From positions 7,472,566 to 7,536,565 of the forward strand of contig OX422195.1 of NCBI GenBank assembly GCA_949130485.1: a stretch of 64,000 bases of DNA, written 5' to 3'. Below the pieces are notes generated by a model, which was not told where the DNA came from, did not search any database, and saw only the letters and a list, made by a program, of their open reading frames with translations. Source of the DNA: Agelas oroides. Taxonomy: Eukaryota > Porifera > Demospongiae > Agelasida > Agelasidae. Shown here one piece after another: positions 25,701 to 64,000 of the stretch. The position numbers and the translations under genes are program-made. Every line of letters begins with the position of its first letter. The stretch's first letter is position 1.

Positions 25701-27082
25701 TCTGGGAGTATTACAACTCCTCCCCTCCCTTCTCTCTCCTCCTTCTCCTAGGTCCTCCAGGAGGCTGAGAACAAGGTGGCTGTGCTGTGGAAGCACCAGC
25801 TGATGCAGCTCAACAACATGTCAGACATCATGGCTGCCGCTGTCGTAGCAACTTATCCCTCTCCCGCCCACCTTCTGGCTGTAAGACCTCCTCTAGCCTC
25901 ACTCCCAACCTCTGATACCCTCAGCTTACTGCAAGCGATAAAAGCTGGGAGTGTCAGAGGCTCATTTCAAGCCTCTCACACCTCTGTCATGTGATAAAAG
26001 CCACTCACACCTCTGTCGTGTGATAAAAGCCACTCACACCTCTGTCATGTGATAAAAGCCACTCACACCTCTGTCGTGTGATAAAAGCCACTCACACCTC
26101 TGTCATGTGATGAAAGCCTCTCACACCTCTATCTTTCATCACTTACTGCATGCGATAAAACCCATTAACGTAACTTACAAGAGAAACAAAAGTAACGCAT
26201 GAGCACACAAGTGATAAAACAGGCTGGGAGTGTGGGAGGCTGGGAACAAGGCACACAAGTGATAAAACAGGCTGGGAGTGTGGGAGGCTGGGAACAAGGC
26301 ACACAAGTGATAAAACAGGCTGGGAGTGTGGGAGGCTGGGAACAAGGCACACAAGTGATAAAACAGGCTGGGAGTGTGGGAGGCTGGGAACAAGGCACAC
26401 AAGTGATAAAACAGGCTGGGAGTGTGGGAGGCTGGGAACAAGGCACACAAGTGATAAAACAGGCTGGGAGTGTGGGAGGCTGGGAACAAGGCTTTGCAAC
26501 CATTAACCCTGTTTGGTATTACACAACTTTGCAACTGGTTGTATTTCTACCTGCTCAGGAATATGAAGCTTGTACTGACGAAAAGAGTGCCGAACTCTTA
26601 CTGCAGAATATCATGGTTAGCACCTCTTACGCATGTCCTCAACTTTCAGCACTTTCATAGCCTCGTTCCCAGGTCTGCCCTATTTTGTCCTCCGTTTGTG
26701 TTCACAATAACACGGAAACTGAAGAGTGGCACTTTGTGTATTATTGTGAACACAAACGGAAAGTGAAATGGGGCAGGCCTGGGAACGAGGCTATCTTCAA
26801 CTTGTCATTAATTTTAGTACTTTGTTCTGGTTTCAAAGTCAATTTGGTTGTCCAGGTTTGTTGAATACTTGGGGGTTGCACTCTATCCTCGTTTCCCAGG
26901 CCTCTCCTTCAGTTGTATGTATAGGATCAAGTTACAACTATACGAGTAATGTAGCATGCTGTTTATTTCAGGTGCGGAGGGGAGTCGGTACTGTGGCTTC
27001 CACCAGGAGACTGGGGCCAGTGCAGTCAAAGAGGATCTACACACTGCTGACCTCCAGAGACCCAAACCTCACCCTCGTGTAG
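19793..27082 (+). CDS. EME1: Crossover junction endonuclease EME1, 545 aa
   Basis: Eleven exons keep phase: 19793-19844, 19922-20385, 21083-21157, 21819-22040, 23001-23093, 23579-23703, 24297-24551, 25480-25534, 25752-25880, 26559-26615, 26972-27082. EME1 is the non-catalytic partner of MUS81, cutting replication forks, 3' flaps and Holliday-junction intermediates in the nucleus. The N-terminus is Ser-rich and disordered with acidic patches (VVLSSDSD, NLIDNSDSD) that resemble SUMO-interacting motifs. A basic coiled region (MERERQRAEKRHQK) precedes the ERCC4-like nuclease fold (VVILDTVLSENAQF, VDIFFRGNKTRLNRRF). The C-terminal helix-hairpin-helix end RLGPVQSKRIYTLLTSRDPN closely resembles vertebrate EME1. 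Length is near human EME1 (about 570 aa). Introns 3-9 are packed with repeats, including a hAT element and three minisatellites, without breaking the frame. Confidence 0.92.
20604..20957. mobile_element. MITE with TAGAGGGCGT ends, about 350 bp
   Basis: Short inverted ends (TATAGAGGGCGTCCATGT and the inverse ACATGCACGCCCTCTAT) in EME1 intron 2. The interior includes GTTGCTACGCCGCCATCTTG and CAAGATGGCGG, YY1-like sites in both orientations. Confidence 0.5.
21212..21376. repeat. 32-bp tandem repeat, about five copies
   Basis: Unit CTATACTCTAGGTGTGCGTA plus AGTGTTAAATCTT-like remainder, nearly identical copies, in EME1 intron 3. A hairpin with ATTTTATCTTGTAGC arms and an M1-like end (GCCTGGGAAGGAGGCTA) follows at 21385-21461. 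Confidence 0.9.
22160..22865. repeat. 51-bp minisatellite, about 14 copies
   Basis: Unit built of TTATCACAAAGTGCGTAATT followed by ATTCTTTTGTTTGTTTGTTT and ATGTTTGGAGA. Some copies lack one TTTG. Because 51 is divisible by three, several frames stay open on both strands (22130-22699 plus, 22145-22543 minus), giving spurious ORFs. In EME1 intron 4. Confidence 0.95.
23323..23387. mobile_element. Short-TIR MITE (M1), 65 bp
   Basis: TAGCCTCGTTCCCAGGCC ends around a short spacer. Flanks GGGAATGGG and GGGAATGGT match at 8 of 9 positions. In EME1 intron 5. Confidence 0.85.
23762..24039. mobile_element. Short-TIR element containing telomere-like repeats
   Basis: TGTCCAGTGTTGCCTTCAA at the left and its exact inverse at the right, with CCCAGGATAA / CATCCCAGGA repeats inside each arm. 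The centre has CCCTAACCCTAACCCTAAC (about 23874-23893). In EME1 intron 6. Confidence 0.65.
24762..25413. mobile_element. hAT-type element, 652 bp, with a nested M2 MITE
   Basis: Ends TAGGGCTGCCATGACA and TGTCATGACAT...TGGCAGCCCTA. The perfect 8-bp flanks GTGGATAC (24754-24761 and 25414-25421) are diagnostic of hAT transposition. No transposase ORF. The M2 copy at 25080-25340 inserted into it later. In EME1 intron 7. Confidence 0.85.
25080..25340. mobile_element. MITE family M2 copy, 261 bp
   Basis: CAAGAGCGCATAAGAACGGG ends and their inverse; flanked by GGCTTAT on both sides (7 bp). Nested in the hAT element. Confidence 0.82.
25978..26130. repeat. 30-bp tandem repeat, about five copies
   Basis: Unit CACTCACACCTCTGTCATGT plus GATAAAAGC, alternating CATG/CGTG, in EME1 intron 9. 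Confidence 0.85.
26206..26491. repeat. 48-bp tandem repeat, six copies
   Basis: Unit contains GTGATAAAACAGGCTGGGAG and GGCTGGGAACAAGGC. The last part resembles the M1 end (GCCTGGGAACGAGGCTA), suggesting that a MITE end was captured into a minisatellite. The period is a multiple of three, so all frames are open (26199-26660 plus and three minus frames); none is a gene. In EME1 intron 9. Confidence 0.92.
26658..26793. mobile_element. M1 element, 136 bp
   Basis: TAGCCTCGTTCCCAGGTCTG at the left and the inverse at the right. The arms continue into CCGTTTGTGTTCACAATAA-like sequence shared with the 9129 copy. No clear 9-bp duplication. In EME1 intron 10. Confidence 0.75.
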
Positions 27083-34472: not shown

Positions 34473-34890
34473 CAGGGGCCAGCAACCACGGGATGACCCA
34501 GGGTGCCCCAATCGCAGGGTTATCAGAAAACTGGCATATGACAGTGGTATGAGTCTCATTAGTAATATCATGTATCGATAGCTGTTTAGCTCTGGCAACA
34601 GTCATTGTATATCCATGTTCATACTGTTTTCATCCAGCTAAGTGATAAAATGACAGCAAAAATAATAAATAAAATTTTAAAATGTGGACTGGGCATTAAG
34701 GATATTTTACCTTTAACAGTCTATAAGGGGGAGAGTACAGTGTTCAAATACCATCTGCTGGGGGTGACTGCTCTCCACTCGGCAGGGCTGAGTGTGAACT
34801 TCGCTGTCGGCAGGTAGTCACCTGTAGTGGAGGGGGAATGGCACTGTTACTCTCCCCAGTTTTAAACTTGTAGCAATCGTATTATTAATA

Positions 34891-36741
34891 TTGGCAACCA
34901 TCAGTTTCAGAATAGTAACTATTCCCATAGGACTCACGTCATGGGACGAGAATGATTTAGAGCCGGAGATCATGACGGAGAACACGGGAGGGCCCATACC
35001 TTGCCAGTCAGATCAGGCTTGTAAGGAATACACAAGTGACCTGCTTCAGCTGGAACAATGTGTACCGTTGGTAGCGGAGGTGATTACAAGCCCACTAGCC
35101 ATGGTGAACTCACCTCTGAGAGGTGAAAAGTGGGAGGCAGCATTGCTTTCTCATCCAGATTGTGCATTTGTTTCTTACTTGCTGAGGGGCATGACCTGGG
35201 GTTTTCGGATTGGAGTGGATAGGCACACCCAAAGATGCAAACCATGCCGCAAGAACATGATGTCGGCAAAGCAGTACCCTCAGGTGGTTGAAGAGTACTT
35301 GGCTGAGGAGTTGGAAGCAGGGAGAGTGGTTGGTCCGTTGGATCTACAGAAGTACCCTCAGGTGCAAGTTAGCCCATTTGGTGTGATTCCAAAAAGTCAT
35401 CAGCCTAATAAGTGGCGGCTCATAGTGGATCTCTCCTCACCTGAAGGAGAGAGTGTGAATGATTGCATCGATAAATCATTGTGTTCACTGTCATACGTGT
35501 CTGTGGATGATTTGGCAGAGATCATTCGGAGGGTAGGCCACAAGGCATTACTGGCGAAACTAGACGTAAAATCTGCTTATCGCATTGTCCCAGTACATCC
35601 AGAAGATCGCCAGTTTCTAGGCATGCAGTGGAAAGGAAAGTTGTTCATCGACACAGCTTTGCCTTTTGGTCTGCGATCAGCCCCAAAGTTGTTCAACGCA
35701 CTGGCAGATGCACTGGAATGGATCATGCGGAGCAGGGGGTTGCGGCATGTAGCACACTACTTAGACGACTTTATCACAGTGGGATCTCCGGAATCAGACG
35801 AGTGTGCTCACAATCTTCATGTGGCATTGTTGACATGTGAAGAGTTGGGTGTTCCGGTGGCTGGTCACAAGTGCGAAGGTCCTTCCACATGTTTAACATT
35901 TTTGGGAATTGAGGTGGATACAATGGCCATGGAACTGCGGCTGCCTCTAGACAAGTTGCAGCGTTTGAAGTTGCTAGTAGCTGAGTGGCGCCATCGTAAG
36001 AGTTGCCTGAGAAAGGAATTGGAATCTTTAGTCGGGCATTTGAGCCATGCTTGCAAGGTGGTCAAACCAGGAAGGAGGTTTTTGCGGGGCTTGATTGGGA
36101 GGTTAGCAGGAGCAAAAAGGCGTCATTTTCATATCCGGCTTAACTCAGAGTTCAGAGCAGATTTGGAGTGGTGGCACATTTTCCTGGGTTCATGGAATGG
36201 CACCTCGTTATTGCGGCAGGAACATTTGCAATCTCCAGACGCTACCATTTGGAGTGATGCATCAGGCTCGTGGGGTTGTGCAGCAGTTTGGGAGAACCAG
36301 TGGTTTCAGGTAGGCTGGCAGAAGTTTGAAGAATTTTCTGAAGCCTCCATTGCAGCAAAGGAGATGCTTCCAATTTTGGTGGCAGCAGCGGTATGGGGCC
36401 ATCGGTGGGTCGGTTCCACTGTTCTGTGCAACAGTGATAATGAGGCGGTGGTGGCAGTATTGCGATCGGGATCAGCGAAAGATAAGAAGTTGGCTCACAT
36501 GCTGAGATGTTTATTTTTTCTTGAGGCGAAGTTCCAATTTACCATGGTAGCTGCTCATATTCCAGGTGTTATGAATGTGAGGGCAGATGCTCTATCCCGC
36601 AACCATATCGATGTCTTTTTTGCCTCCTTTCCTCAGGCATGCCACATTCCACATGCAGTTCCTCAAGATCTGGTATGGGGCTTAATCCATCCACAAGCGT
36701 GGACATCGCCAGAATGGACCAGCTGGTTCAGTACTATTTAA
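34891..36741 (+). CDS. Reverse transcriptase/RNase H ORF of the DIRS-like element
   Basis: RT core marks LLAKLDVKSAYRIVPVHPED, LPFGLRSAPKLFN and HYLDDFITVG (YxDD box), followed by an RNase H region beginning TIWSDASGSWGCAAV. The frame is uninterrupted and overlaps the recombinase ORF by about 100 bp, as in many DIRS elements. Confidence 0.88.
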   Translation: MATISFRIVTIPIGLTSWDENDLEPEIMTENTGGPIPCQSDQACKEYTSDLLQLEQCVPLVAEVITSPLAMVNSPLRGEKWEAALLSHPDCAFVSYLLRGMTWGFRIGVDRHTQRCKPCRKNMMSAKQYPQVVEEYLAEELEAGRVVGPLDLQKYPQVQVSPFGVIPKSHQPNKWRLIVDLSSPEGESVNDCIDKSLCSLSYVSVDDLAEIIRRVGHKALLAKLDVKSAYRIVPVHPEDRQFLGMQWKGKLFIDTALPFGLRSAPKLFNALADALEWIMRSRGLRHVAHYLDDFITVGSPESDECAHNLHVALLTCEELGVPVAGHKCEGPSTCLTFLGIEVDTMAMELRLPLDKLQRLKLLVAEWRHRKSCLRKELESLVGHLSHACKVVKPGRRFLRGLIGRLAGAKRRHFHIRLNSEFRADLEWWHIFLGSWNGTSLLRQEHLQSPDATIWSDASGSWGCAAVWENQWFQVGWQKFEEFSEASIAAKEMLPILVAAAVWGHRWVGSTVLCNSDNEAVVAVLRSGSAKDKKLAHMLRCLFFLEAKFQFTMVAAHIPGVMNVRADALSRNHIDVFFASFPQACHIPHAVPQDLVWGLIHPQAWTSPEWTSWFSTI

Positions 36742-37679
36742 AGCACTCATTGGCTCCATCCACATTGCGTTCATATGGTGCAGCGAAAAAACGGTATGTA
36801 CAATTTTGCCAGCGTCTGAATATTGTCCCTATCCCAGCAACAGAGACAACCTTGTGCCAGTATGTGGCTTGCCTGGCAAACAGCAATTTAAAACACCAAA
36901 CAATCAAATGCTACTTATCTGGTGTACGTCATCTGCAGATAATAGGAGGTTTTGGTGATCCATTTGAGCAGTCGTTGCCACTGCTGGAATATGTCCTGAG
37001 AGGGATAAAAAGTGACCAAGCAAAAAGAGGAACAACTGTTCGCACTCGGCTTCCGATTACTCCGTCCATATTGCAGCGACTGCGGTTGGTGTGGGAAAGG
37101 GACCCTGGGAATAGCGACCATATAATGTTGTGGGCGGCATGTTGCACTTGTTTTTTCGGATTCCTTCGTTCTGGTGAGATTGTAGTCCCATCAGCAGGGG
37201 AGTATGATCCTGGTGCCCACCTCAGTTATGGGGATGTAACGTTGGATACTCGGGAGAGTCCGTCAGTGGCACAAGTGAACATCAAGGCTTCAAAGACTGA
37301 TCCTTTTCGAAAAGGTGTTTCCATTTATATTGGACGGACCAATAATGGCTTGTGTCCGGTAGCAGCTTTAGCTGCTTATTTGGCTTCCAGAGGTAGTGGG
37401 CCAGGCCCATTTTTTCGATTTAGCAACGGGAGCCCGTTAACCAGAGAATCCTTTGTGACAAAAGTCAGGGATGCATTGCTGGTAGCCGGTATTGAGAACC
37501 CGTCACACTATGCGGGCCACAGTTTTCGCATCGGTGCAGCGACCACAGCTGCGGCGGCGGGTGTTGAGGATTCGATCATCAAAACCCTTGGTCGGTGGGA
37601 GAGCTCCGCTTATTTGTTATACCTACGTATTCCACGGGAAAGACTGGCTGCTCTGTCAAAACTGTTATCTGTGTCTTGA
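36639..37679 (+). CDS. Tyrosine recombinase ORF of the DIRS-like element
   Basis: SAM-like N-terminal part (LAPSTLRSYGAAKKRYVQF) then a catalytic domain with FFGFLRSGEI (first Arg), HSFRIGAA (H-x-x-R) and a Tyr after GRWESSAY. This enzyme replaces an integrase and explains the absence of target duplications. Confidence 0.88.
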   Translation: MPHSTCSSSRSGMGLNPSTSVDIARMDQLVQYYLKHSLAPSTLRSYGAAKKRYVQFCQRLNIVPIPATETTLCQYVACLANSNLKHQTIKCYLSGVRHLQIIGGFGDPFEQSLPLLEYVLRGIKSDQAKRGTTVRTRLPITPSILQRLRLVWERDPGNSDHIMLWAACCTCFFGFLRSGEIVVPSAGEYDPGAHLSYGDVTLDTRESPSVAQVNIKASKTDPFRKGVSIYIGRTNNGLCPVAALAAYLASRGSGPGPFFRFSNGSPLTRESFVTKVRDALLVAGIENPSHYAGHSFRIGAATTAAAAGVEDSIIKTLGRWESSAYLLYLRIPRERLAALSKLLSVS

Positions 37680-42436: not shown

Positions 42437-43912
42437 ATGGGAGAGGAGGCCAAGCCGCAGGAGAAGGAGGGAAGCACTTACTCTCCCGCCGTACGTCGCA
42501 AAACGAGCTATAAAATTTGCTTGTATACGGAGAATTACGGAACGTTTACAAGATAATACAAATTTCCTTGTCACTCAGGGGTGTATCAATGTATGCTGGA
42601 GTGCTGATTGTATAGGCTGGATTTTTTTACACACTTGTTTATAGTTTTACATTTATGCAAACACTATTTTTGAAAGCAATTTTGAGGACTAGCCAGGTTT
42701 TTTAAGATTGCACCCTGAAATCTCTGTTGGAAATGTGTGTGAATAAAACCTTGGTATGCATGCAGTCCAGCACTTTTTAACTGCTAGGGTACCAGCAACC
42801 TTGTTAGCCCCAGAAACAGTTCATGTTCCTCCTTCCTCCAACACATGCACATGGTCACAACCAGTTTGTCTTCATCTACCTGTTCAACCTGCACATTGGT
42901 ATTGGTTTACTGGCACTCCCCAAAGCCTTCAGCGAAGCCGGTATGGCATTAGGGTCAATCCTCCTCGTCATTCTTGCCTTTGTGGGCTACATGACTGCCA
43001 CATACATGATTGAAGCCATGGCTGCAGCCAATGCCTATGTTAAGTTGGAACAGAGGGAGAAGAAGCACTCATCAGAGAAAGAAGGTTCCAGTGATGTACA
43101 AAAAATTAATCAGGTACATGTAGGATTTACTCATTCTAACAAGTGTGATATATACTCTACTCTCCCCGCACACTGCGATTCCTGGAAACAAAGCACTCCC
43201 CCAGACTAGATTAGAGCTTGAAGAATGTTCCAGGCTTCTTGGTGGTTTTAGTAAAGCCACATCACCTGATTGTTGTAGCTTTGATCATCCTAATCTACCA
43301 GACTTTAGAGCTGTTAAGGCTTGAGTTTGCCCACTGCTTGGCGAAGGCAGAGGAGTAGCTAAGCCTGGTACATGGCGTGTGTTTGGTGCTGATCATGACA
43401 ACATGAAGCTCACTGCAACAGAAGCATGACACTACCAATTGAGAGGTTGGTCTTTCCTTTCAGAAGACCTGTAAACCAGAAAGGGGGTTAGCATTGCTCA
43501 AATAGATTTTCTGAGAACAAAAAATGGCCTAAAGAAAAAGCTCCTAGTGTATTGTCCAAAAAGTTCCTCAACAAATTTTTAGAGAAAACCTCTTTGATAG
43601 TATTCCTTGGTGAAACCTGGTTCAAGTGTTTTTATGGTGCATTCAATCTTCGCTTTCTCTTACATGATGTTCTGTGCTCCGTTGTGCAAAAATCATGTAT
43701 CTCAATGTGTGTACCAGGCTTCTTCAACTTGATGCATTAATGTTCTGATTAGCTGACAGGATATAATATAGGGACTAGCTACACATTGGTACATTCAAAG
43801 ATGAAAACAGAATTTGTTGTTGATATAGCAACTGCTTGTTATATTTTCTGCAGTCATCTTCAGATAGAAAGCCTCTCATTGAGACGACTCCTCTCATGCT
43901 GTCACCATTGCG

Positions 43913-43958
<46 letters not shown>

Positions 43959-46474
43959 GGGGTGACTATAGATCGCTTTCATAAGACACGGCTTAATGTA
44001 CTATAAGTATGCACTTACAGAGGGCAACAGGCAGGATTATTTGCATGCTACGTTGACCCTGGCAAGAGAGCTTCTATGAAGGCAATTGGTTGGTTGTAGC
44101 TACTGCTATCCCTTGATTGTGCAGTTGCCCTCCCGAAGCGGTTAGGCCTGCCCATTTGGAAACCGTCTATAGCTTGAACTGAAACTCAATCTCTAATGTG
44201 TGTTAGACATGCAGACCCCCTTATAAACGTAAGGCTTCTGGTCCCTCATAGACATTGCCACCATTCAAGATGAAGAGGTCCCTTCTCCAGATGACTACAA
44301 GATTGAGAAGAAATTTGAAATGGTGACCATGACTACCCCTCTCTCCCTCTCTCGCTCTGCTTGTATTTGGTAGATGTTGATTACTATTGTACATGTGTAG
44401 TGTGGTAACTGTGGTAACAGCAATCTACTCTCTGCAGGGTACCATGGCAAACATGTTCTACCACCCCATTGGGATTGTCCTCTATTACATCTGCATCTGC
44501 CTCTACCTCTATGGAGACCTGGCCATTTTCACTGTTGCCATACCAAAATCTTTTAGAACAGCTGTGTGGTAAGTGGCTCATCCATCTCAATCATTTAAGA
44601 TACAGCAGTATGATGTTCCATCTGCCTATACTGCAAAGAAAGAGAGTACATTCCACACTCTGTAGTGCAAACCTCATTGAGAACCAATAGTATGGGTGTT
44701 CTTATTTCAGTTTACGTACAGTTGAATGTAGCTATCCATGCCAGCCATTACCAGGTTTGCTACTTATCTGTGATTGAAATATTTTGAGAGGCAACTTGGT
44801 TGATGTGAAAGCAGGAAAAAAAAAAGCTCTAGCAAGCACTAAAATGTGGCAGTAAAAGTATCTACCTTGATCTACTAAGCAACGCCATTGATACTGTAGG
44901 CTGATTTACTACCCTATCTTTTAATTTCTCCACCCCATGCAGTAAAACAGTGTCAGGGATTGCCAACATGACAGCAAATGTGACAATAAACATGACAGAT
45001 CTCTTAAATAGCTCCAACATCTCCAGTAACCTTACAGAAGACATGATAGACCTCTCGAGCTTTGCAGATCCCTCTAATATGACAGATCCCTCTAACGGCA
45101 CCATGGAATACTTCTGCTTTGGGCATGTCACTAAAACACAGGCATATTACATTTTCCTGGTAAGAGAATTCAATTTGTAGTAATGTAGGTTGTAGAATAA
45201 GTGCCTATCAGAGTTCATTCCCAGTCACACAAAACTTGCTCCCTTCCCTTCCCTCTCCCCTCTCCTCCCCCTTCCCTTCCCTCTCCCCTCTCCTCCCCCT
45301 TCCCTTCCCTTCCCTCTCCCCTCTCCTCCCCCTTCCCTTCCCTCTCCCCTCCCCTTCCCTCTCCCCTCCCCTTCCCTCTCAACATCCTCAGTCCATCACA
45401 GTGGTTTTGTTGTGTCCCTGGACTTTCTTCAACCTGACAAGATCCAAATATCTCCAAATCGTCACAGCCATACTTAGGAATATGGGTAAGATGATGCCTG
45501 TAGCATATGTATTTCATTGTGTGTTAAAACAAAGCTGCTTATAATGTTAACAATGGCATATCAGTATTTTTACATATGTGCATCCTAAACATATTGCCGT
45601 ACACACACACACTCTCACATACGCACACACACATGCACACCACACACACCACACATTCTCATACACAGCAATCACCCTGATGGTGGTAATAGCCATTGTC
45701 CAATTGGGCCAGGGGGACGTCGCCAACCCCCTCCCCCCTGCTGCCACACTCACAGGATTCCCGGTGCTCTTTGGTGTCAGTATCTATGGCTTCATGTGCC
45801 AGCATTCTCTGCCAGGACTGATCACCCCAATGAAGTCAAAGAAAAACGTCCTGATACTCGTAGCGACTGAGTTCATGCTGAGTCTTACTTTGTACCACTT
45901 GGTGGCCTTCACGGGAGCTTATCGATTCCCCCTGAGAGAACTTCATGACCTGTACACGATTAACTTTTTTACTGTCTCAACTCTTTCCGCTGGTGAAACA
46001 GCATTGACCGTGATTGGGTATTATTTGGTACTGTACCCTGTGTTTGCATTAAGCACGAACTTTCCAGTTGTTTCAATCACACTTCGTGAGAACTTGAAAG
46101 GATTGGCAAGATTCATTGCAAGGCGCTGGATCAAAGACAAGCCCTTTCCTCTGTTGATCGATAGGGTTTTATTTCCAATACTTGCGATTGCACCACCCAT
46201 CATTATTGCCTTTGCAACTGAAAATATTGAAATTCTTGTCAGTATCACCGGCTCCTTCCCTGGGATTGGTGTCCAGTATGTGATTCCAGCGACACTCGTT
46301 TTAGCCAGTCGATATGCTATAAAACGAAAGTATGGCAAGTATGACAACGCACACAAGTCACCCTTTGGCCACATTTCATTTTTCATTGGTATATTTATAT
46401 GGACAGTTGTGAGCATTATTCTAATAATAGCTGATGATGTCCTCAATATTGTGAAAAACAAATTCTCTTACTAA
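42437..46474 (+). CDS. TMEM104: Transmembrane protein 104, copy 1, 560 aa
   Basis: Eight exons keep phase: 42437-42490, 42865-43113, 43854-43914, 44252-44322, 44438-44568, 44943-45159, 45392-45485, 45669-46474. TMEM104 is a member of the amino-acid/auxin permease superfamily (relative of SLC36/SLC38) with about ten or eleven spans and no settled substrate. Family blocks: LPKAFSEAGM, YMIEAMAAANAY, YHPIGIVLYYICICLYLYGD, FGVSIYGFMCQHSLPGLITP, FALSTNFPVVSITLREN, GVQYVIPATL, HKSPFGHISFFIG. Exon 6 encodes a large loop with many Asn-X-Ser/Thr sequons (NMT, NVT, NSS, NLT, NGT), clearly luminal or extracellular. The exon 7 acceptor follows a very long pyrimidine tract. Intron positions equal those of copy 2. 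Confidence 0.92.
43914..43955. repeat. (GT)n microsatellite
   Basis: About 20 GT units starting at the exon 3 donor of TMEM104 copy 1, so the splice donor is itself part of the repeat. An (AC)n tract lies at 45600-45660 before exon 8. Confidence 0.9.
45236..45391. repeat. Polypyrimidine minisatellite before TMEM104 copy 1 exon 7
   Basis: Irregular CCCTTCCCTCTCCCCTCTCC units running to the exon 7 acceptor; no purine-rich break. The paralogous intron of copy 2 (50340-50565) has a different pyrimidine repeat (CCCT)n with CTCTGACCT interruptions. Confidence 0.85.
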
Positions 46475-46575: not shown

Positions 46576-46988
46576 TGGCGTCCCGAGTGCGAGCAGTGAC
46601 AGTGTTGTGGAGAAGGAGTACCTGCCTCCTCACTGCTCGATCACTGCACAGCTGTCCACCCTGGGCTCTCCTGCCGGCTGCCACCGGCCCACATCACCTG
46701 GTGCCTCAGTGATCGCAGCCAGCAGACAGATGTCTCCCCTGCCCCCACACCAGCTTCTCGAGGAAAATTTGACCATGCTACGGAATTTGTGGTCACCAAG
46801 CTGGATGAAGTTGTGAATTGGTCAAGGAAGGGTTCTCTCTGGCCAATGACCTTTGGTCTGGCATGTTGTGCTGTTGAAATGATGCATGCAGCTGCCCCAA
46901 GATATGACATGGATCGGTTTGGGGTGGTGTTTCGAGCAAGCCAGCGCCAGTCTGACTGTATGATTGTGGCAGGAACCCCGACCAACAA
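46576..46988 (+). pseudogene. NDUFS7: Truncated NDUFS7 copy
   Basis: Starts with an ATG and a typical mitochondrial presequence ([20 protein letters not shown]), runs into an in-frame TGA at about 46711, and changes frame. It then reads [40 protein letters not shown] and [20 protein letters not shown], which is the N2 4Fe-4S cluster region of complex I subunit NDUFS7/PSST (the CC pair is visible). It ends abruptly there; the cluster's remaining cysteine motifs and the C-terminal third are missing. No introns and no poly-A tail are visible, so it may be a 3'-truncated retrocopy or a shuffled fragment. It sits 184 bp before TMEM104 copy 2. Confidence 0.85.
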
Positions 46989-47171: not shown

Positions 47172-50100
47172 ATGGGAGACAAGCCGTCGGAGAAGGAGGG
47201 AGGCACTTATTCTTCAGCCGTAAGTCGAGACAAAAAAAATGAACGTCTTAGGCGAATACTAAATCCCTCTACAGCGACTACAGTCAGGCCTAGCTAATAG
47301 GCTATGTTGTGCTGATGTGTTGTTCAGCTGATAGTAGTATAAGCAGTGTTGGTTTAGTATCCACCCTTCCCCATTCCCCTGATGATGTGAACGTTCATCT
47401 CAAAACTTTGAAGTAGAAGAACTGGTTAGAACATGTGGCGTGCTGGTCTCCAGTCCAACACTTTAAGGACTAGAAGAACTGGTCTAGTTTGGTTAGAACA
47501 TGTGCTTGTCAACAGTCCAACACTAGGTCACCACTAACCCTTATAGTTTGTTTATTCCAGTCATCCATATTTTCTACTTGTGAAGTTCATATTTCATGTT
47601 GACAACCCTACACTAACCTTGTTTATTCCAGTCACCACGGAGACACTGTTTCCTTTTCTCCAACAACGCACACATGCTTTCAATCAGTTCGGGTTTGTCT
47701 ACATCTTCAACCTAATCATTGGTGTTGGTGCACTGGCACTTCCGAAGGCCTTCAGTAATGCTGGTCTGGTGCTAGGGACAATTCTCCTCATCCTCCTTGG
47801 CTTTGTGAGCTACATGACGACCACATACATGATTGAAGCCATGGCCGCAGCCAATGCCTATGCTAAGTTGGAACAGAGGAAGAAGCGCTCATCAGAGAAT
47901 ACCTGTCCCAATGACATACAGAAGATCAATCAGGTATGAAGCTTCAGAGATCAAGTAAGCCGACAAAGTATAATGCCACTCCAAATTGATTCCATTTCCC
48001 GCCCACGTGTATATACCTCACAATTTTGTTTGATTGCATAATTGATTCGGACAAGTTAAATGTGATTGATAAGTTAAATATGATAATATATGTTTGTCAG
48101 GTTTGGAACACTTTCAGTCACTGCATGCAGTACCTAGTCACACTGTCAAATATGCTAGTACTGGGATGTTAAAGTGACAGGCGATGCTTTCATGATTCTC
48201 GACACCAGTAATGATAAGAATAACAAACTGTCCATTTGCATGCTTAAGAAATTTCTCTGCAAAGAAATCAACTTGGAGTGTGCTAATGGTGTGTGCATGT
48301 TGTGTTTTTTTTTTAAATCTGGGAAGACCTACTAACACTGTAGAGGACAGACATGAGACCATATGTGGTTATTTCTAACCTGCTTGTTGCAATAGTAACT
48401 AACATCTGTGTAGATAGTGGACACTCAGTGACAACAGAGGAGTAGGCATGGCATGTGTATGGTTTTGAAGTGCCGTAGATTGGGAAATTTTTGCCGTTAA
48501 AATATTTTTGCCAGAGTGACGAAAATTAAACGTGCGAAAATAAAATACGTATACATGCTACATTGCAGCGGAACCATCGAGCAACAAAATGTTTTTAACC
48601 CAAAAATTTAAAACGCAAATTATTTTTACTGCGAAAATTTCACGATCTACGTACAGTAGATGTAACTTCAAGCTCACAGCCAAGTGGACCCCACTTCACG
48701 TCATCTTGTGCTCCAACATGCAGAATCATGGAGTGTCTGCAACATGGTTTTCATGTGGTATAATACTACCTGTTAATTGTTTGAAACTCTAGCAACTAAG
48801 TTTGTGCATTCAAAGATAGAAAGGGAAGGCAGTCCATATCTGAAATTGTTGATAGAAATTGATGTATTCTCTGCAGACATGTTCTGATTGCGATTCAGTC
48901 ACTGATGTCGAAGAGACGACTCCTCTCATCCTAACATCGGTGGAAGGTATGAACCAGAGTACATACAAGAAATTAATCCCTTGGGGTTGGGGGGGGGGGG
49001 GGGGGGGCTAGCTGGAGATAACTTTGATGTGTGTACAACACACATAACTGGTCCCTTGTAGACAAGACCACAGCTGAAGATGATGATGATGTTCCTCCTC
49101 CAGATGACTATGAGATTGAGAAGAAGTTTGAAATGGTGAGTACCTTCCCCCCTCTCCCCAACCCCCTCTCTCTCTCTCTCTCTCTCTGAATAAAGGTACC
49201 TTGCTCAAGGGCAGATCTGATGGGACTAGAGAGGTGCTAGCGGCACTGACAAAAGCATTTATAGTGGCATCATGTCAACATTTACTTTGCTATACATGGT
49301 ACTCAAATGTATTGTAACTCGTCCCCGAAAAGAGCATCTGCCACTTGGTTGCTAACCCATGGAACATGTAAGGTACTTTGACAAGGGCCCAAGTTCAGAA
49401 ATGCCTTCTCCAAGACCTTACAGATACACCCCCTTCCCACTTCCTCCCCTTGTGGGTTGCTGGTCAATTCGACTTCACATTCTTCATCAGTTGAGCTCCC
49501 CCTCCCACTTTCACAATCCTGAATCTATGCATGCATAGTTATGTGTGGTGCTGGTGCATGTTAATCACAGTCTACTCTCTGCAGGGTACCATGGCAAACA
49601 TGTTCTACCATCCCATTGGGATTGTCCTCTACTATATCTGTATCTGTCTCTATCTCTATGGAGACCTGTCCATCTATGCTGTCGCTATACCAAAGTCATT
49701 CAAAACAGCTGTGTGGTAAGTGGATCATCCATGCTGTCGCCCTTCTTTGCATTTCTGGACAGACTCGCACAGTAATGGATTATTATTTGAAACTCTTAAG
49801 AGGAGAAAAGCATAATTAGTGCACCTGCAATGTTATCCTCTGCTTAGCTTCATCTAACATAGTTGATACTACTGGTTGATTAACGACTGTTACCTTTTCT
49901 TCTTCCCATACAGTAAACATGTGGTCATCAATTCCACCAACACAACGGGAAACATGACGGAAGACATGATTGACCTCTTGAATAGCTCCAATAACTCCGT
50001 TGACACAAACTGCTTCGGACAGGTCACACAAACACAGGCTTATTACATTTTCCTGGTGAGAAATTTACTGTGTAGCTTCTGAAGCAAGAGATGTCCAGGA

Positions 50101-52609
50101 TCACCATCAAAGGCTAAGTAGTAGTGGCTTTGATCTCCTTTTGTTCTTTCTTTGTTCCCTAATCCCAACCCTAACCCTAACCCCACCCCCTGGACATGTA
50201 ATGAGAAGCCCTTCATAAGTTTAGAGAAGAGTGCCAGCATGATGGAGTTACATTTCCAGGACATATGAACAACCTTGAAATGATCTGGCATGCAAGCCAC
50301 CTAGTGTATAACAAACCTGTCAGTAACAAGTATCACTCCTTTTCCTCCCTTCTCTCCCTTTGGGTTTCCCTCCTCTCTCTGGCCTCCCTCTGACCTCCCT
50401 CCCTCCCTCCCTCCCTCCCTCCCTCCCTCTGACCTCCCTCCCTCCCTCCCTCCCTCCCTCCCTCCCTCCCTCCCTCTGACCTCCCTCCCTCCCTTTGGCT
50501 TCCCCTCCTCCCTCTGACCTCCCTCCCTTTGGCTTCCCCTCCTCCCTCTGGCCTCCCTCCCTCAGGCCATCACAGTGGTTTTGTTGTGTCCTTGGACCTT
50601 CTTCAACCTGACAAAGTCCAAATATCTGCAGCTCCTCACAACCATCTTGAGGAACGTTGGTAAGATGATGCATGTTGTTCAAGCTTTTCTACTCGGCCTA
50701 AGCTAATTATTCACATCACCTCTCCTATTATTTCGAGGATGAACCTGAGCGAGCCTCTCACAAGCGTGACTGCATTGCGCATGCACATGTTAATGCTGAC
50801 CACTTACCATAAATTTCAAATGAGCGCATTCAAATACTTCACAAAACTTGCGTTTCCATGTGGTTGCGTGCACAAATTCACTTCTGCTTAGCGAGAGAGT
50901 GTGAATGCCAAATGGCTACTGCCAGACTGTATTGTGAGTGTGAAAGAGACCATGAGTGAAGACAATTGAAATTGAACTACACACGGTAACTTCTTGCTTC
51001 TGCATGCTACCTGAACTTGGTATATCTGTGAAGACAGGCTTTCAGTCAGTCAGACATGGTGGTTGATGGAGGTAAAGTGTCCTGCATGAACAATGCTCAT
51101 TCATGGCAAAGACTCAGCTCATGATTTGAGTGTGAACCTTTAGCCCATGCCAGTGTAGCTGCCCTGGCTAACAAACACTGCTACTCATCATGTGTTGTCT
51201 GTGTGCCATGAACTGGTGGTGCGCTGCTCGCTCAGGCTCACCCCACAATGATCAAGCATCTGCCTAGTATAAAATAATTGGGGACGTTGGTATAAACTTA
51301 TTTGTCAAAAATAAAACTGGCTTCACAAAAAGACTGTGGTTTCAACAATGGAAAACCACGCCCATTTCTTGTCCCAAAGCTAAATGACAACGTGGTGAGT
51401 GTGTTCATTGGTTAAGTGCATGCAGGATGCCATTGTTGCTGAGGAGAGCTTGAGAGATCGAAAGCAAGCTTGAGTTGGGCAACAGCTTGGCATTAGTGCC
51501 CTCGTCAGTGAGCTGGTCAGCCATTATTTTTACATTTCACATGGTTCGAACTTTTGCAAATTATGCACAATGTGAGAAAATCCCTACTATGCTACAAAAA
51601 TATGCATGCATAATTAGAACATGCCCATTTTCCACACTGTCCACTTACATTAAGTCATATTCTCCCCTTGCCACACACATACACACATACCAACACTATG
51701 GCGGGATCTCCTTGCCACACACATACACACACACCAACACTATGGCGGGATCTCCTTGCCACACACATACACACACACCAACACTATATTGTACTACACA
51801 CAGCCTTCATCCTGATGGTGGTAATAGCCATTGTCCAATTGGGACAGGGGAACGTCGCCAACCCCCTCCCCCCTGCTGCGACACTCACAGGATTCCCGGT
51901 GCTCTTTGGTGTCAGTATCTATGCCTTCATGTGCCAGCATTCTCTGCCAGGGATGATCACCCCAATGAAGACAAAGAAAAACATCTTGGTACTGACGGCA
52001 GTTGATTTTGCACTAATTCTTGTTTTCTACCTTCTATTGGCCTTTACGGGAGCTTTTCGATTCACCTACGGACAACTAAAAGATCTGTACACGTTGAACT
52101 TTTTTACTGTCTCAACTGCTTCCGCTGCTGAAACGACATTGACCGTGATTGGGTACTATTTGGCGCTGTTTCCTGTGTTCACGTTAAGCACAAACTTCCC
52201 GATTATTTCAATCACACTTCGTGAAAACCTGAAGGAACTAGCAAGACTCATTGCAAGGCGCTGGATCAAAGACAAGCCCTTTCCTCTGTTGATTGATAGG
52301 ATTTTATTCCCATTAGTTGCGATTGCACCACCCATCATTATTGCCTTTGCAACTGAAAATGTAGAATTTCTTGTCAGTATCACCGGCTCCTTCCCTGGGG
52401 TTGGTGTCCAGTATGTGATACCGGCGACACTTGCTTTTGCCGGTCGATATGTTATAAAACGGAAGTTTGGCAAGTATGACAACACACACAAGTCACCCTT
52501 TGGTCATGTTGTATTTTTCATTGGTATTCTTATATGGACCGTTGTCAGCGTTATTCTAATAATAGCAGACGATGTCCTTAAAATTGTGCAAAACACGTTT
52601 TTTGATTAA
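47172..52609 (+). CDS. TMEM104: Transmembrane protein 104, copy 2, 536 aa
   Basis: Eight exons with the same boundaries and phases as copy 1: 47172-47219, 47688-47933, 48877-48946, 49062-49135, 49585-49715, 49914-50055, 50566-50659, 51804-52609. Exon 8 and exon 5 are very similar to copy 1 (LPPAATLTGFPVLFGVSIYAF, RLIARRWIKDKPFPLLIDR), while the acidic N-terminal loop (exons 3-4) and the glycosylated loop (exon 6, with about five sequons instead of about ten) have diverged. This is a DNA-level tandem duplication since introns are shared. Both copies look intact. Intron 7 (50660-51803) contains CACACACATACAC-type repeats near its end and nothing else recognised. Confidence 0.92.
48471..48656. 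mobile_element. MITE with CCGTAGATTGGGAAATTTTTGC ends
   Basis: Short inverted ends (GTAGATTGGGAAATTTTTGC and GCGAAAATTTCACGATCTAC) and GCGAAAAT motifs inside, related to the 40406 element. In intron 2 of TMEM104 copy 2. Confidence 0.6.
50340..50565. repeat. (CCCT)n pyrimidine tract before TMEM104 copy 2 exon 7
   Basis: Runs of CTCCCTCCCTCC broken by CTCTGACCT and TTTGGCTTCCCCTCC, reaching the exon 7 acceptor at 50565. CCCTAACCCTAACCCC, a telomere-like scrap, lies at about 50169-50186. Confidence 0.88.
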
Positions 52610-58294: not shown

Positions 58295-58542
58295 CAGGAC
58301 AGTATCAGATCAGTACGCACATATCTGTATCAGACCTGTACGAACAGCATGTCTTAGGGCTGTTTTTGCTGAACTGATACAGAGCTGCAGAACTGATACA
58401 AATCCGATTTACAGTTCGGTATCAGACCCATTGCCAAAAAGTTCTGTTGCGTTCCTGGGTACAGATCTGGATCAGATTGGTTCCACTTCTGATTCAAAAC
58501 GTACGATTTTGCTGTGTAGTCCCGTTCCCAGACCATCCCGAA

Positions 58543-61411
58543 ATGGTTGACAAGGCTGTCCAAACTCCAGCTGGAAGCAGGGAAAGGCACAGTCTACTTC
58601 GAAATCCAGCAGGCAGTGATGATGAGCAAGAAATAGTACTGACAAGAGCACATCCCAGAATGGACTCAAGCAGTTTGCCGTCTCAAGGGAGTGACTATGG
58701 TAGTATACAACAACCTCCTGTCTTGGAGCGATACCGAAGAAGAGTCAGCTGTCGGCGTTTTTGCTGGAATCGTCTTCCCAAGGGAAAGGGCTTTGTGCTT
58801 GTTTTTGTCATAAACATACTCGAAAGTATAGTCTTTTTTGGTGCGGCGAGCGCAATACATCAGCTACTTCTTGGGAACGAGAAGAATAACAAAAGTTTAG
58901 GTTTTTTCGTCTACATAGGGCTGAAGTATTGTGCTGGAAGAATATTTTATCCTGTTGCTGGCCTCTTAGCTGATGTCTACTTTGGAAGATACAAACTTAT
59001 CCATATTAGCCTGTGGCTTTTGTGGACGGCATTTGCGCTTTTTACTTTGGCGTTGTCACTGTACCCAATAAATGTCCTTCCCGTTGCACTAACAAAGTAC
59101 GTTGTGCCCATCATGGCTTTCATTCTTGTAAGTCTAGGGACAGGTGGGGTTGAAGCTACAATAATCCCATTCGGTGCCGATCAGCTCTCACAGGGGGCTT
59201 CATCTGACGAACTTAGCTCCTACTTTTACTGGTATTACTTTGGAAGACAGGCTGGAGCTCTAGGAGGTACCCTGTTATTTTTTGCATTACTCCTGCCAAA
59301 ATATGTAGCTGGTGATGACAAGTCCGTGGAGAAGTTCAATCTTCAAATTGCGAATACAGTCCAACCTGTTGTTGTAGTACTTGCAATGACAATAGCTATC
59401 ATTCTCCATGTGTCTCTCAAAGGTTGGTACTTCAGGAACAAACAGCGAGAAAATCCACTGAAGTTAGTTATTAATGTACTGTACTATGTTGCCACAGTAA
59501 AGCGGCACGCTCCCCAGTACCGAAGGGCATTCAGATATGGTGAACCATGGAAGCCAAGAATAGAGTTGGCCAAAGCAGAATACGATGGCATCTTTACCAG
59601 TGAAGAGGTCGAAGATGTGAAGACATTTCTCCGCATTTTGCTCATTTTTTTCCCACTGGCTGGCTTTTTTGCTGCTTATAGTGGGGTAAGGTTTTTGCTT
59701 GCTGCAGCTAGTTTATACGAATTTCTCTCTGCAGAGTGTATATTAATGAATTTTCTTTCCTGCAGGCATACACAATGATCTCCTACCAAGTACGCAACTT
59801 CACCTTAGTTGCAGAAGGGCTCCACAAGCCCACAATTAATCAGACTTATCTCACAGGAAACCTACTCACCATCTTCAACACAGTAACCATCCTCTTCTGC
59901 TGTCCTTTACTGAACCACCTGATCCTTCCCTGCCTGCCTTCTACTAGCATGAAGAAACGGCTTGGCCTTGGAATTCTGTTGAATGCTGTAGCCATTGCAG
60001 TTGCTGCAATCCTGGAATTTGCTACTTTCAACCATGATGACGCTATGCAGCGTGTACTATTGCTTATGATTCCAGCTCTACTGATATCTGTTGCGGAAGC
60101 ACTTGTTTTCATTACTGGTAAGCTTGGACACATTGAGGATTAACAACTCTCCTATAGGCAAGCACTTTTTATGTGTTGTACCTCAATGACTAACCTATAC
60201 ACTTACTTCAACTACAGTATACATGTGCACATTTACATACTGGGATCACTTATATATTTGTGAAATCATAGGGTAGTCTAAAGCTTGATACTTGAAACTC
60301 AACTCGAAATTGTTTTCTACTTAGGGATGTAGCAACCACCACATCTGCTGAGTACCTGTCCATAGACAGACAGAAAATTGTAGCTGGCAGTCACACCTGA
60401 TTATCAAGTACAACATCATCACTAGCCTGATTTTGCAAGTGCCAGTTATTTGTGAAATGACAGTTGCTGACTAATTCTCAGACACAAATATTACGCCACC
60501 ATTCCTTACAAAGACATCCATCCACCAGAGATGAGAACCATCATAGGATAGGCTAAAGCTTGATACTTGAAATTCAACTCAACAATATAGTTACCTTTCC
60601 TTTTCAGAGAAGGTGCAAAAGATCATGCTAGTTTTGCAGCATAATTTCAAACATAATCAATGATATATAGAGCCTAGTCACGTAGTAACATATCTAAACA
60701 ACCTAGAAGTTGTAGGTGAAATGATTGGAATATGCAGTAGGACTCAAGGAAAGCATTGACCGAAGTTTGTGTATGTCCGAAATTTGATTTTGTTCAAGAA
60801 ATGGTTCCTCCACCTACTACAGTAATTCTCTGGTATCAAAAGCCATCACAACTGCTATCGCTAACTTGCTGCTCTGTGGATCTAGCACGGCAGCTTTTGT
60901 GCTTACACTTTCTAGTACTGGAGCTCCACTTGAATGTCTGAGAATAAGGATAGGGCCAGCCATTTTTATCCTTATTTATTTATTTTTGTTTGTTTATTTT
61001 TTTTCCATGAGATAATAGTCTCTCTCTCTCATGGTAACGCACACTTGTTTGCATGTCTTCTTGTTCATGGGTACATGCAAGTCATGCCATTGTTATCATC
61101 TCACAATTCTAGGGCTGGAGTTCATCTATGCTCAATCTCCTGAAAGCATGAAGGGTCTTCTAACAGGACTGTTCTACTGCGTGTTTGGTATCTTCAGTGG
61201 AGTGGCAGTGTTGGTTTTTTACAAGTTCCCTAAGTCTACTCTCAATGGAACCAGCACTATTTTATGGTTTTATGTTACTTTTACAGTGATTGGCTCACTG
61301 GGTTTTGTAGGCTACGCTGTTGTTGCCTTTATGTATGTCAACAGAGTGAGGCCTGCTGGTGGCCCTGAGGAAGAGATCCAGGGTAGACTTGAGCGAGGAC
61401 TGTACACATGA
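58543..61411 (+). CDS. Proton-coupled oligopeptide/histidine transporter, SLC15 (POT) family, 597 aa
   Basis: Three exons keep phase: 58543-59685, 59766-60117, 61113-61411. The ATG opens a soluble N-terminus of about 80 residues with an acidic-dileucine-like stretch (ERHSLLRN, DDEQEI), compatible with endolysosomal sorting. The transporter core has FVINILESIVFFG (the position of the family E-x-x-E-R motif, here weakened), AGRIFYPVAGLLADVYFGRY, VEATIIPFGADQLSQGAS (POT signature), YFYWYYFGRQAG, TSEEVEDVKTFLRIL and GLEFIYAQSPESMKGLLTGL. The closest remembered relatives are SLC15A4/A3 and the broader PTR group; substrate likely di/tripeptides or histidine, coupled to protons (inference). About twelve spans. 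Intron 2 (60118-61112) contains nothing I recognise. Converges on the LRR-kinase-KEN gene 492 bp downstream. Confidence 0.85.
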
Positions 61412-61557
61412 ATATGTTTTGTATGGCTGGAATTTTTTTGTATGGCTAAGAGATATAAACTTTTTTTTTTTTTACTGTATGTACCCGTAACAGTATGTGA
61501 CTACTAACTCAACAGCTATACAGAATCATGAAGCTTGCAAAAACACTGCTATAGTAT

Positions 61558-61622
61558 TAGCCTCGTACCCAGGCCGTTCATTAACAAAAGTTTCTCCCAC
61601 GAATGGCCTGGGTACGAGGCTA
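61558..61622. mobile_element. Short-TIR MITE (M1), 65 bp
   Basis: TAGCCTCGTACCCAGGCCGT with its inverse; flanks CTATAGTAT / CTATATAAT match at 7 of 9. In the convergent gap between the transporter and the kinase-RNase gene. Confidence 0.8.
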
Positions 61623-61903
61623 CTATATAATTATAGTATGGTTTCACAATTACTTGGGTAGTACTAAATAGTTATACTGCACGCTAAAGCAGTGTTACAA
61701 AATGGGTATAGTCCATGCAGCTATCACTACTGTGATACTTATGGAAGGAAAAGTTAAGGAAATCTCCCAGCAAACCTTCTGTGATGTCCCTGTGGCACCA
61801 TGCCACTCTCCCTACAAAAAGCAGGTGTTGCAAAAACTTAGCTGCTGCACCGAATATAATGGAAGATACCTAATGTACATTTTATGAAGCAAATTACAGT
61901 GTT

Positions 61904-64000
61904 TCAGGTTTCTGAATCTGTTTCATGTGGTGAAATGTTCTGTGAAACTTGCTGCTGTGAGCTGATCTCTTCTGCCTCTTTCTGTACCCTGTACGCATAC
62001 AGTAAAAGTTTTGGAAAGAGCCTGTTGTAGAAACACACAACACCTTCTGGACTGCCGTTATAAATAGCCTTGAGCTCTGGTCTAAGTTTGCTAAAATGCT
62101 CCATTTTGTTACGAATCACTCTCAGCAACCCGCATATACTTGTTTGCTGCTTTTTGAAACCATCGACATCCTTTCTTACGGCTTTAGGCAGCCTCTCCAT
62201 CCAACTACCCTCAAACACCTCTTCACTCTGCTGTTCTAACTGCTGCACCAGTTGACTGGAGTACTTCTTGCTATCCAAAAGATTGCCTATCTGGTGATAG
62301 AAAGTGACTTGCTTGTCAATCGTCCATAAAAGTGGATGTTGCTGGACACAAACGACACTAGGTCTTTTTTCAGCGTTGTTTTGAATCATGGAACCAATAA
62401 GATCGATAGCTATGTGTTCTACAGAGCCATCACAGTGTTCAAACAGGCTCTCCAGACTAAATTGATCGTTTCCAATATTTTCTTGCAGCTCTTCAACAGT
62501 GTTGCTCACTGATGAAGCAAATGGATGCCCCCCTCTTGTGAGCACGTAGAAAGAAACACAACCAAGGGAAAAGATATCAACAGCACTTGTTCTTTTTCCT
62601 GTTCCCCAGAGTTCAGGAGCACTCCAACCCTCTGAGCCATAACATGGCCTGTTTGAGGATTGTTCTCCAGAATAGCGGCCCAAATCCAAGTCAGCAACAA
62701 TGAACCTGTACTCGCCAGAGCTATCCACATCCCAGAGGATGTTTGATGGCTTTATATCCCGGTGCTGTACCTTGTTTTTATGCAGGAAGGCTAGTCCACG
62801 TGTTATCTGCTGGAGACATTGCTGACAAGTTAGTTGGGAAAGAACATCCGCATCTCTATCGGACACAGCACCTCTCAGTAGATCTCCTAAGTTGCCTTTG
62901 TACAATGCCAGTGCAATGTAAGTCGCATTATTGTCCTTCTCCATGAGCAGATACTGAACAACATTTTCATGAAATTGATTGGTTTTGGACAAGTGCAGAA
63001 GTTTATCCAATTCGTTGCATCGTTCTTTACGCATATGTGAAATCACCTTAACTGCAGCATCACGTCCATCTTTCAGTTCTCCCTTAAACACATTTGGGCC
63101 GAGGGGGTCTTTGGTGCTGAATATAATTTGACCACATTCGACTATTGATTTGCGTCTGAAGCGCTTCCAGAGTATGTGCATACATATACCACTAATCAAC
63201 GATAGCAGAAAGAGACCAGGATATTCCAACAGAACCAAAATTGACTTCCAGATATAAACAGGACAGCAATGTTGGAAATGAGTGAAATTGAGTTGATGCA
63301 ATAAAGTGCCATTCAGTTCTGGAGGATAGCGACACACAGCAAGACTGGAGAACTTGGACTTATCCAACAATAGAATCCATTCCATGTCACACGAACAGTT
63401 CCATAAGTTGCCATCCATTGCAAGCCATTTTAGTGATGGGAGCTGAATAATATCTTCTCCTGAAATTGTTTTCAGAAAGTTGTAGGATAAGTCTAGAGAT
63501 GTAAGCCGTGGAAGGTTATAAAATGCTCCTGAATGAATTTCCATAATAGAATTTCCAGTGAGGTTGATGACTTTTACTTGGGGTAAAGATTTGAATGCAC
63601 TAGTTTCAATCACATCCAGGAGGTGATTTTGAATCAACAATAACTCTTCTAAATTAACAAGTATTGAAAATGTCTCCTTCCCAATTTTGTAAGACTTCAT
63701 GAAGTTGTTGCTGATGTTAACCCTTTCAATGGAATAATACATTTTGCCATCAAAGGCGCCTGGCAACAGGTCCAGTTGCATACAATCATGGATAGTAAGA
63801 TTTATCAGAAGAGGGTGTAAGATGGATTGAAATAAAACTGTACCAACATTGAGAGATGGAAATTTCCAGAAAACCAAATCTGTTGTGTTGCTTGGTATCT
63901 GTTGGGCCACATCTACATAATCAACTTCATATTGATGCCACCAGCTTAGATCCGAGTGTTTGCAAACCACCACAAAATGTTTGTTCGTAGTGTCATTTTC
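61904..64000 (-). CDS. LRR-transmembrane-kinase-KEN ribonuclease protein (IRE1/RNase L-like effector), partial at the N-terminus
   Basis: One open exon of about 698 codons that runs off the right edge, so the true start (and any signal peptide) is outside. Residues are numbered from the GTG at 63973. Order: LRRNT-like segment and about five leucine-rich repeats (30-185; NLTGNSIMEIHSGAFYNLP, LDLSYNFLKTI); LRR C-terminal cap with NLWNCSCDMEWILL (189-236); a membrane span (about 243-269) then basic KRFRRK; protein kinase domain (282-550) with K309, HRDIKPSN (404-411), D428-L-D where DFG is expected, and YGSEGWSAPEL, the IRE1-type activation-loop end; then a KEN domain (about 555-665) with LLRVIRNKMEHF (R621, N622, H626 at catalytic positions) and FYNRLFPKLLLYAY. 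IRE1 normally has a beta-rich lumenal sensor and RNase L has ankyrin repeats; here the sensor is LRR. N-glycosylation sites lie only before the membrane span. Confidence 0.9.
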   Translation of the reverse strand, partial: ENDTTNKHFVVVCKHSDLSWWHQYEVDYVDVAQQIPSNTTDLVFWKFPSLNVGTVLFQSILHPLLINLTIHDCMQLDLLPGAFDGKMYYSIERVNISNNFMKSYKIGKETFSILVNLEELLLIQNHLLDVIETSAFKSLPQVKVINLTGNSIMEIHSGAFYNLPRLTSLDLSYNFLKTISGEDIIQLPSLKWLAMDGNLWNCSCDMEWILLLDKSKFSSLAVCRYPPELNGTLLHQLNFTHFQHCCPVYIWKSILVLLEYPGLFLLSLISGICMHILWKRFRRKSIVECGQIIFSTKDPLGPNVFKGELKDGRDAAVKVISHMRKERCNELDKLLHLSKTNQFHENVVQYLLMEKDNNATYIALALYKGNLGDLLRGAVSDRDADVLSQLTCQQCLQQITRGLAFLHKNKVQHRDIKPSNILWDVDSSGEYRFIVADLDLGRYSGEQSSNRPCYGSEGWSAPELWGTGKRTSAVDIFSLGCVSFYVLTRGGHPFASSVSNTVEELQENIGNDQFSLESLFEHCDGSVEHIAIDLIGSMIQNNAEKRPSVVCVQQHPLLWTIDKQVTFYHQIGNLLDSKKYSSQLVQQLEQQSEEVFEGSWMERLPKAVRKDVDGFKKQQTSICGLLRVIRNKMEHFSKLRPELKAIYNGSPEGVVCFYNRLFPKLLLYAYRVQKEAEEISSQQQVSQNISPHETDSET

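Follow-up and report, generated by a model that had tools for sequence, protein, structure and literature searches.

The gene described here, at one end of the 64,000-nucleotide stretch of Agelas oroides DNA that was analysed (the window), combines in one reading frame leucine-rich repeats (LRRs), a membrane span, a kinase domain like that of IRE1 and a KEN ribonuclease domain. We consider it reasonably probable that the product is an LRR single-pass membrane receptor in which a ligand would drive dimerization and the KEN domain would cut RNA near the membrane. Binding of the ligand to the LRRs would pair two chains; the kinase domain, having neither the glycine loop nor the αC glutamate, would, as in RNase L, scaffold the dimer instead of working as an enzyme, and the paired KEN domains would cleave RNA close to the membrane, with broad RNA decay rather than sequence-specific splicing as the likely output. 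The gene itself could have arisen when an IRE1/RNase L-type kinase–KEN module was joined to an LRR receptor ectodomain. As the preliminary description suggested, such a protein may serve an immune or stress pathway of ligand-driven oligomerization and RNA cleavage. Among animal KEN proteins, the best known respond to unfolded protein (IRE1) or to 2-5A (RNase L); a KEN module under an LRR ectodomain, if true, would make RNA cleavage the output of a receptor, with no adaptor or transcription step in between.

The frame lies on the minus strand, which the preliminary description of this DNA had left unstated, and runs for 698 codons without an internal stop from position 64000 to 61907, followed by a TGA stop at 61906–61904. 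It is still open at position 64000, in agreement with the earlier remark that the N-terminus is cut by the window. By eye only, residues 1–60 resemble the last part of an N-terminal LRR cap, so that perhaps little coding sequence is missing beyond position 64000. The arrangement first described, with repeats, C-terminal cap, membrane span, kinase and KEN domains in one uninterrupted exon, was recovered in the same order and in a single frame. The profile searches that had been proposed for LRR, Pkinase and Ribonuc_2-5A gave matches above the curated Pfam cut-offs for all three, with E values (LRR_8, 4.8e-29; Pkinase, 1e-33 for residues 304–557; Ribonuc_2-5A/KEN, 2.3e-23 for residues 565–677) that exclude a chance origin. 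Feature positions are summarized in Table 1.

Table 1. Features of the LRR–KEN gene, with positions in the window and residue numbers counted from the first visible codon
Feature	Residues	Position	Strand	Evidence or remark
Open reading frame		61904..64000	-	698 codons + TGA; 5' end cut by the window
Leucine-rich repeats	39–201	63398..63886	-	LRR_8 4.8e-29; PDB matches to TLR9, TLR13 and LRIG1 ectodomains
Cysteine-rich C-terminal LRR cap	202–246	63263..63397	-	C202-x-C204, C223, C245/C246
Single membrane span	253–276	63173..63244	-	Hydropathy; basic stop-transfer stretch after the span
IRE1-like kinase domain	284–554	62339..63151	-	Pkinase 1e-33; human IRE1 match; alignments
KEN ribonuclease domain and C-terminal tail	555–698	61907..62338	-	Ribonuc_2-5A 2.3e-23 (565–677)
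Catalytic motif R630-N-K-M-E634-H635 (R-x4-H, HEPN superfamily)	630–635	62096..62113	-	Alignment

The domain junctions are tight: repeats and cap extend to residue 247, the span covers residues 253–276, homology to IRE1 begins at residue 284 and the largest insertion relative to human IRE1 in the alignment is five residues. Such contiguous homology, with no gap between the domains, leaves no space in which an intron could hide, and the original argument that the lack of an intron between the domains speaks against chimeric assembly holds for one frame that passes through all of them. A chimeric assembly, or a gene-model error fusing two genes, could draw on the truncation of the gene at the window edge and on the failure to find a relative of the same architecture in the viral and prokaryote collections searched. 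We regard it as very improbable, given that the window contains no N, that all domains share one frame without a gap for an intron and that the join falls at the membrane span, with fitting flanks, and not inside a domain. As judged from its sequence, the locus is a well-formed LRR–span–kinase–KEN gene; a tblastn search of the protein against the 64-kb window found no second copy.

The ectodomain contains about six repeats, counted by eye, and ends in a cap that is covered, to residue 247, by the PDB match to Reticulon-4 receptor-like 2 and that gave no match to Pfam LRRCT at E values up to 1. The sole strong hydrophobic peak of the protein is located at residues 254–274 (mean Kyte–Doolittle value of 2.03), with no 21-residue stretch above 1.6 elsewhere, and the basic stretch WKRFRRK follows it. 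Eight of the 11 N-glycosylation sequons fall within residues 1–250 and three within the inner 414 residues (285–698). From the hydropathy peak, the basic stretch and the distribution of sequons, we infer that the LRRs lie outside the cell (or in the ER lumen en route) and the kinase–KEN half in the cytosol. Predicted extracellular LRRs with a C-terminal cap and a single span are also the plan of Toll-like receptors (TLR9 and TLR13 among the PDB matches); unlike these receptors, the sponge protein gave no Pfam match to a TIR domain at E values up to 1 and carries the kinase–KEN module inside. Ankyrin repeats gave no Pfam match in the residues scanned, the N-terminus being cut by the window, and owing to their absence the visible part holds no 2-5A sensor. 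The ER-lumenal sensor domain of IRE1 is also absent from the visible part, where the LRRs occupy the place before the span.

The kinase–KEN half (residues 284–674) matches human IRE1 in the PDB with an E value of 5.8e-54. The VAIK-like lysine and the HRD motif of the preliminary description were located as AVK with Lys318 and at residues 413–415, respectively. Lys318 aligns with Lys599 of human IRE1, which forms a salt bridge with Glu612 (PMC4536996). The αC glutamate is lost in the sponge protein, with Leu aligned to Glu612, and the glycine loop, on which the preliminary description was silent, has a five-residue deletion around residues 300–305. The DFG position (residues 437–439) reads DLD and thus retains the first Asp; in IRE1 the DFG Asp is Asp711 (PMC4536996). 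The suggestion that DLD is nearer to the DFD of RNase L than to IRE1 is borne out by the PDB chains of RNase L, which read ADFD. Asp505 of RNase L has been named as an uncommon DFG substitution, and RNase L has been called a pseudokinase, with a kinase domain that is thought to scaffold dimers (PMC4718504). The segment GSEGWSAPE, which had been described as IRE1/RNase L-style, is present from residue 455, but in the alignment it is a feature of IRE1 that is absent from RNase L.

Owing to the deleted glycine loop, the lost αC glutamate and the change from DFG to DLD, the kinase domain is probably a pseudokinase scaffold for which phosphorylation is unlikely. With Lys318, the HRD motif and the first Asp of the DFG position kept, kinase activity may still be present. 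A probably non-phosphorylating kinase makes an RNase L-like route, in which the domain would scaffold a dimer, likelier than an IRE1-like route through autophosphorylation.

The KEN stretch alone matches IRE1 with an E value of 3.5e-17 and RNase L with an E value of 0.0013. The R-N-x-x-x-H residues claimed for it earlier are present as RNKMEH at residues 630–635, so that the catalytic pattern of KEN and HEPN proteins (R-x4-6-H) appears as R630-NKME-H635. R630, N631 and H635 occupy the alignment columns of R905, N906 and H910 in human IRE1, for which catalytic roles have been described; the KEN histidine acts as general base, and when it is lost from yeast IRE1 the cost exceeds 300,000-fold (PMC9472280). 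The general-acid residue Tyr892 of IRE1 aligns with Gln618, and both RNase L sequences (human and pig) have Lys in this column, in a region where the alignment is loose. In yeast IRE1 the cost of the Y1043F change is only about tenfold (PMC9472280).

These features bear on whether the nuclease is still active. An LRR receptor with an RNase-dead kinase–KEN half that would scaffold signalling or act as a decoy, or a gene in decay, would fit the degenerate kinase motifs, the change of the general-acid Tyr to Gln618 and the lower identity of the KEN domain to human IRE1 (34 of 120 residues) than that of yeast IRE1 (48 of 121). We consider this quite unlikely, since the 698 codons are free of stops, the active-site Arg, Asn and His are retained and the LRR_8, Pkinase and Ribonuc_2-5A matches lie well above the Pfam cut-offs. 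In the preferred reading, a ligand-driven receptor with active KEN domains, the dimer interface suggests the kind of cleavage. At the columns of RNase L N601 and E671, which were picked after the alignment had been seen, the sponge protein has N573 and E634, whereas both IRE1 sequences, human and yeast, carry D and H. Bonding between the nuclease protomers of the RNase L dimer involves N601' and E671, and the alignment of these protomers has been compared with that of a yeast Ire1 double mutant of promiscuous activity (PMC8104961). With the residues of RNase L in place of the D/H pair of IRE1, the putative nuclease would be expected to favour broad decay over specific splicing. AlphaFold2 models predicted from the single sequence had mean pLDDT values of 34.4 for the kinase–KEN half and 33.6 for the whole protein, with all residues below 50.

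In overall similarity, IRE1 is closer to the kinase–KEN module than RNase L is. The kinase domain has 102 of 253 aligned residues identical with human IRE1 and 43 of 199 with human RNase L, and the KEN domain 34 of 120 and 29 of 125, respectively. The protein could be an IRE1 paralogue kept in the ER membrane, with lumenal LRRs that sense folding stress or cargo and with an IRE1-like way of working; the identities, the start of the homology directly after the membrane span and the retained HRD and GxEGWxAPE motifs are in keeping with this. Set against it are the visible part, which has LRRs directly before the span and no IRE1 lumenal domain, and the loss of the glycine loop and the αC glutamate, and we judge such a paralogue to be unlikely compared with the ligand-driven receptor.

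A tree, which had been proposed for the KEN domain, was built from five sequences (the sponge protein, human and yeast IRE1, and human and pig RNase L) with 309 gap-free columns. It joins the protein to RNase L with a local support of 0.987 (0.933 for the kinase alone and 0.874 for the KEN domain alone). Twelve splitting sites pair the protein and RNase L against both IRE1 sequences, with two and four sites for the other two pairings. In alignments simulated under the rival tree (the protein with human IRE1), the RNase L pairing came out on top in 18 of 60, and none of the 60 attained the 10.6 log units by which it leads in the real data (largest lead, 3.6); under the RNase L pairing this lead was attained in 30 of 60. 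All 13 topology tests ranked the RNase L pairing first, with rejection (p-AU < 0.05) of the human IRE1 pairing in five and of the yeast IRE1 pairing in ten; six of the 13 tests use one and the same alignment, two of these six also use the same model, and two of the 13 used 1,000 resamplings, which is below the number advised for the program. With the gap-flanking columns dropped (223 columns), the lead over human IRE1 was 2.2 log units (p-AU of 0.315). The very long branch of RNase L and a convergent decay of two pseudokinases, which lies outside the simulation model, could mislead the tree. We lean, not decisively, towards a grouping of the protein with RNase L rather than with human IRE1.

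More tentatively, and in our view less likely than not, RNase L may have a membrane-bound sister in this protein: in an early-branching animal, a Toll-like LRR receptor would be coupled directly to a pseudokinase and nuclease of the RNase L type. The RNase L effector module would then have existed, attached to a pattern receptor, beyond the ankyrin/2-5A system and in animals for which an absence of RNase L is reported. OAS without RNase L has been reported for four sponges and eight other invertebrates (PMC6307210). If the present genome is among those with OAS and no RNase L, an RNase L-like effector may exist under another sensor, and the gene is a concrete, testable candidate that bears on the origin of RNase L.

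Compared with known systems, the protein has in common with IRE1 (ERN1; yeast Ire1), its best overall match, a span followed at once by kinase and KEN domains, the HRD, GxEGWxAPE and R-N-x3-H motifs, but it differs in its LRRs in place of the lumenal domain, its missing glycine loop and αC glutamate, DLD for DFG, Gln at the position of Tyr892 (in a loose alignment) and dimer-interface residues as in RNase L. With RNase L, its nearest (although not decisively) neighbour in the five-sequence tree, it has in common DxD for DFG, equivalents of N601 and E671, a probable pseudokinase and R-N-x3-H, but it possesses a membrane span and LRRs, shows no ankyrin repeats in the visible part and keeps both HRD (HQD in RNase L) and the GSEGWSAPE activation segment that RNase L is missing. 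Plant LRR receptor kinases also combine LRRs, one span and a kinase fold; the sponge kinase differs from theirs in being of the IRE1 type and in being followed by a KEN domain.

A survey of legumes gives Ribonuc_2-5A among the extra domains of predicted receptor kinases (PMC7333395), and these proteins may be plant IRE1, perhaps without LRRs. In the table of a 2013 HEPN survey, an animal HEPN-fold domain is fused to an LRR in some lineages (HEPN-LRR, the DZIP3/hRUL138 family), but this is another HEPN family that is listed there without kinase–KEN; the KEN row contains kinase, ankyrin, CCCH, UBI and BRCT fusions and no LRR (PMC3710099). For the TLR-like receptors of sponges, immunoglobulin domains are described in place of LRRs, and in Halichondria panicea some LPS-responsive kinase genes carry LRR domains (PMC8242945); these could include relatives of the present gene. 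No LRR–KEN protein is named in the titles and abstract openings among the matches listed from the open-licence PMC literature. Judged by its parts, the gene belongs to the IRE1/RNase L kind, in a form that may be previously unreported; the eukaryotic proteins compared were PDB chains.

Relatives were also sought in viral and prokaryote collections, which are not meant to hold animal genomes. The protein query gave two pattern matches in viral contigs, and a query with a two-sequence alignment gave 82 in viral contigs and 187 in prokaryote genomes, none of which was confirmed by tblastn. Eight of 50,697 phage records matched in tblastn, all with less than 60% identity and confined to the kinase part, and we take these matches to be ordinary protein-kinase similarity. 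The 12 NCBIfam families matched, 11 of the kinase type and one with LRRs, were all far below their cut-offs.

Rfam and tRNA scans of the 64-kb window found nothing. Plus-strand frames at 58378–60140 match the POT transporter family, and a frame reaching 61408, without a Pfam match, may be the end of this POT gene, which would then face the LRR–KEN gene. A C2H2 zinc-finger frame is present elsewhere in the window. Two successive sets of frames matching Aa_trans (amino-acid transporter), at 42808–46471 and 47547–52606 on the plus strand, are apparently the result of a tandem gene duplication; between the two copies, a plus-strand stretch at 46600–47076 matches NDUFS7 of mitochondrial complex I (5.7e-40) and ends within the domain; it may represent a single exon or a retrocopy that has decayed. 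At 34828–37676 on the plus strand, a reverse transcriptase frame (1.9e-14) overlaps another frame, whose match to tyrosine recombinases is weak (6.4e-4, below the cut-off), an arrangement that we take to be that of DIRS-type retrotransposons.

A repeat resembling AGCCTCGTACCCAGGCC occurs in 31 copies in the window at up to three mismatches, compared with 0.02 expected (for example at 61555–61625), and 26 of the 31 copies can be read as neighbouring inverted pairs, the members of which are separated by 13 to 398 bases. From this layout, the repeats are a putative family of short foldback elements. Inverted-pair repeats of this kind are associated with sponges. The repeat pair was found 0 times in the viral and 0 times in the prokaryote collections, and one 17-base form of the repeat had no mention in the open-licence PMC literature. 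The window also contains two minisatellites, one at 22205–22863 with a 51-base unit (13.1 copies, 97% matches) and one at 26203–26492 with a 48-base unit (6.0 copies, 100% matches).
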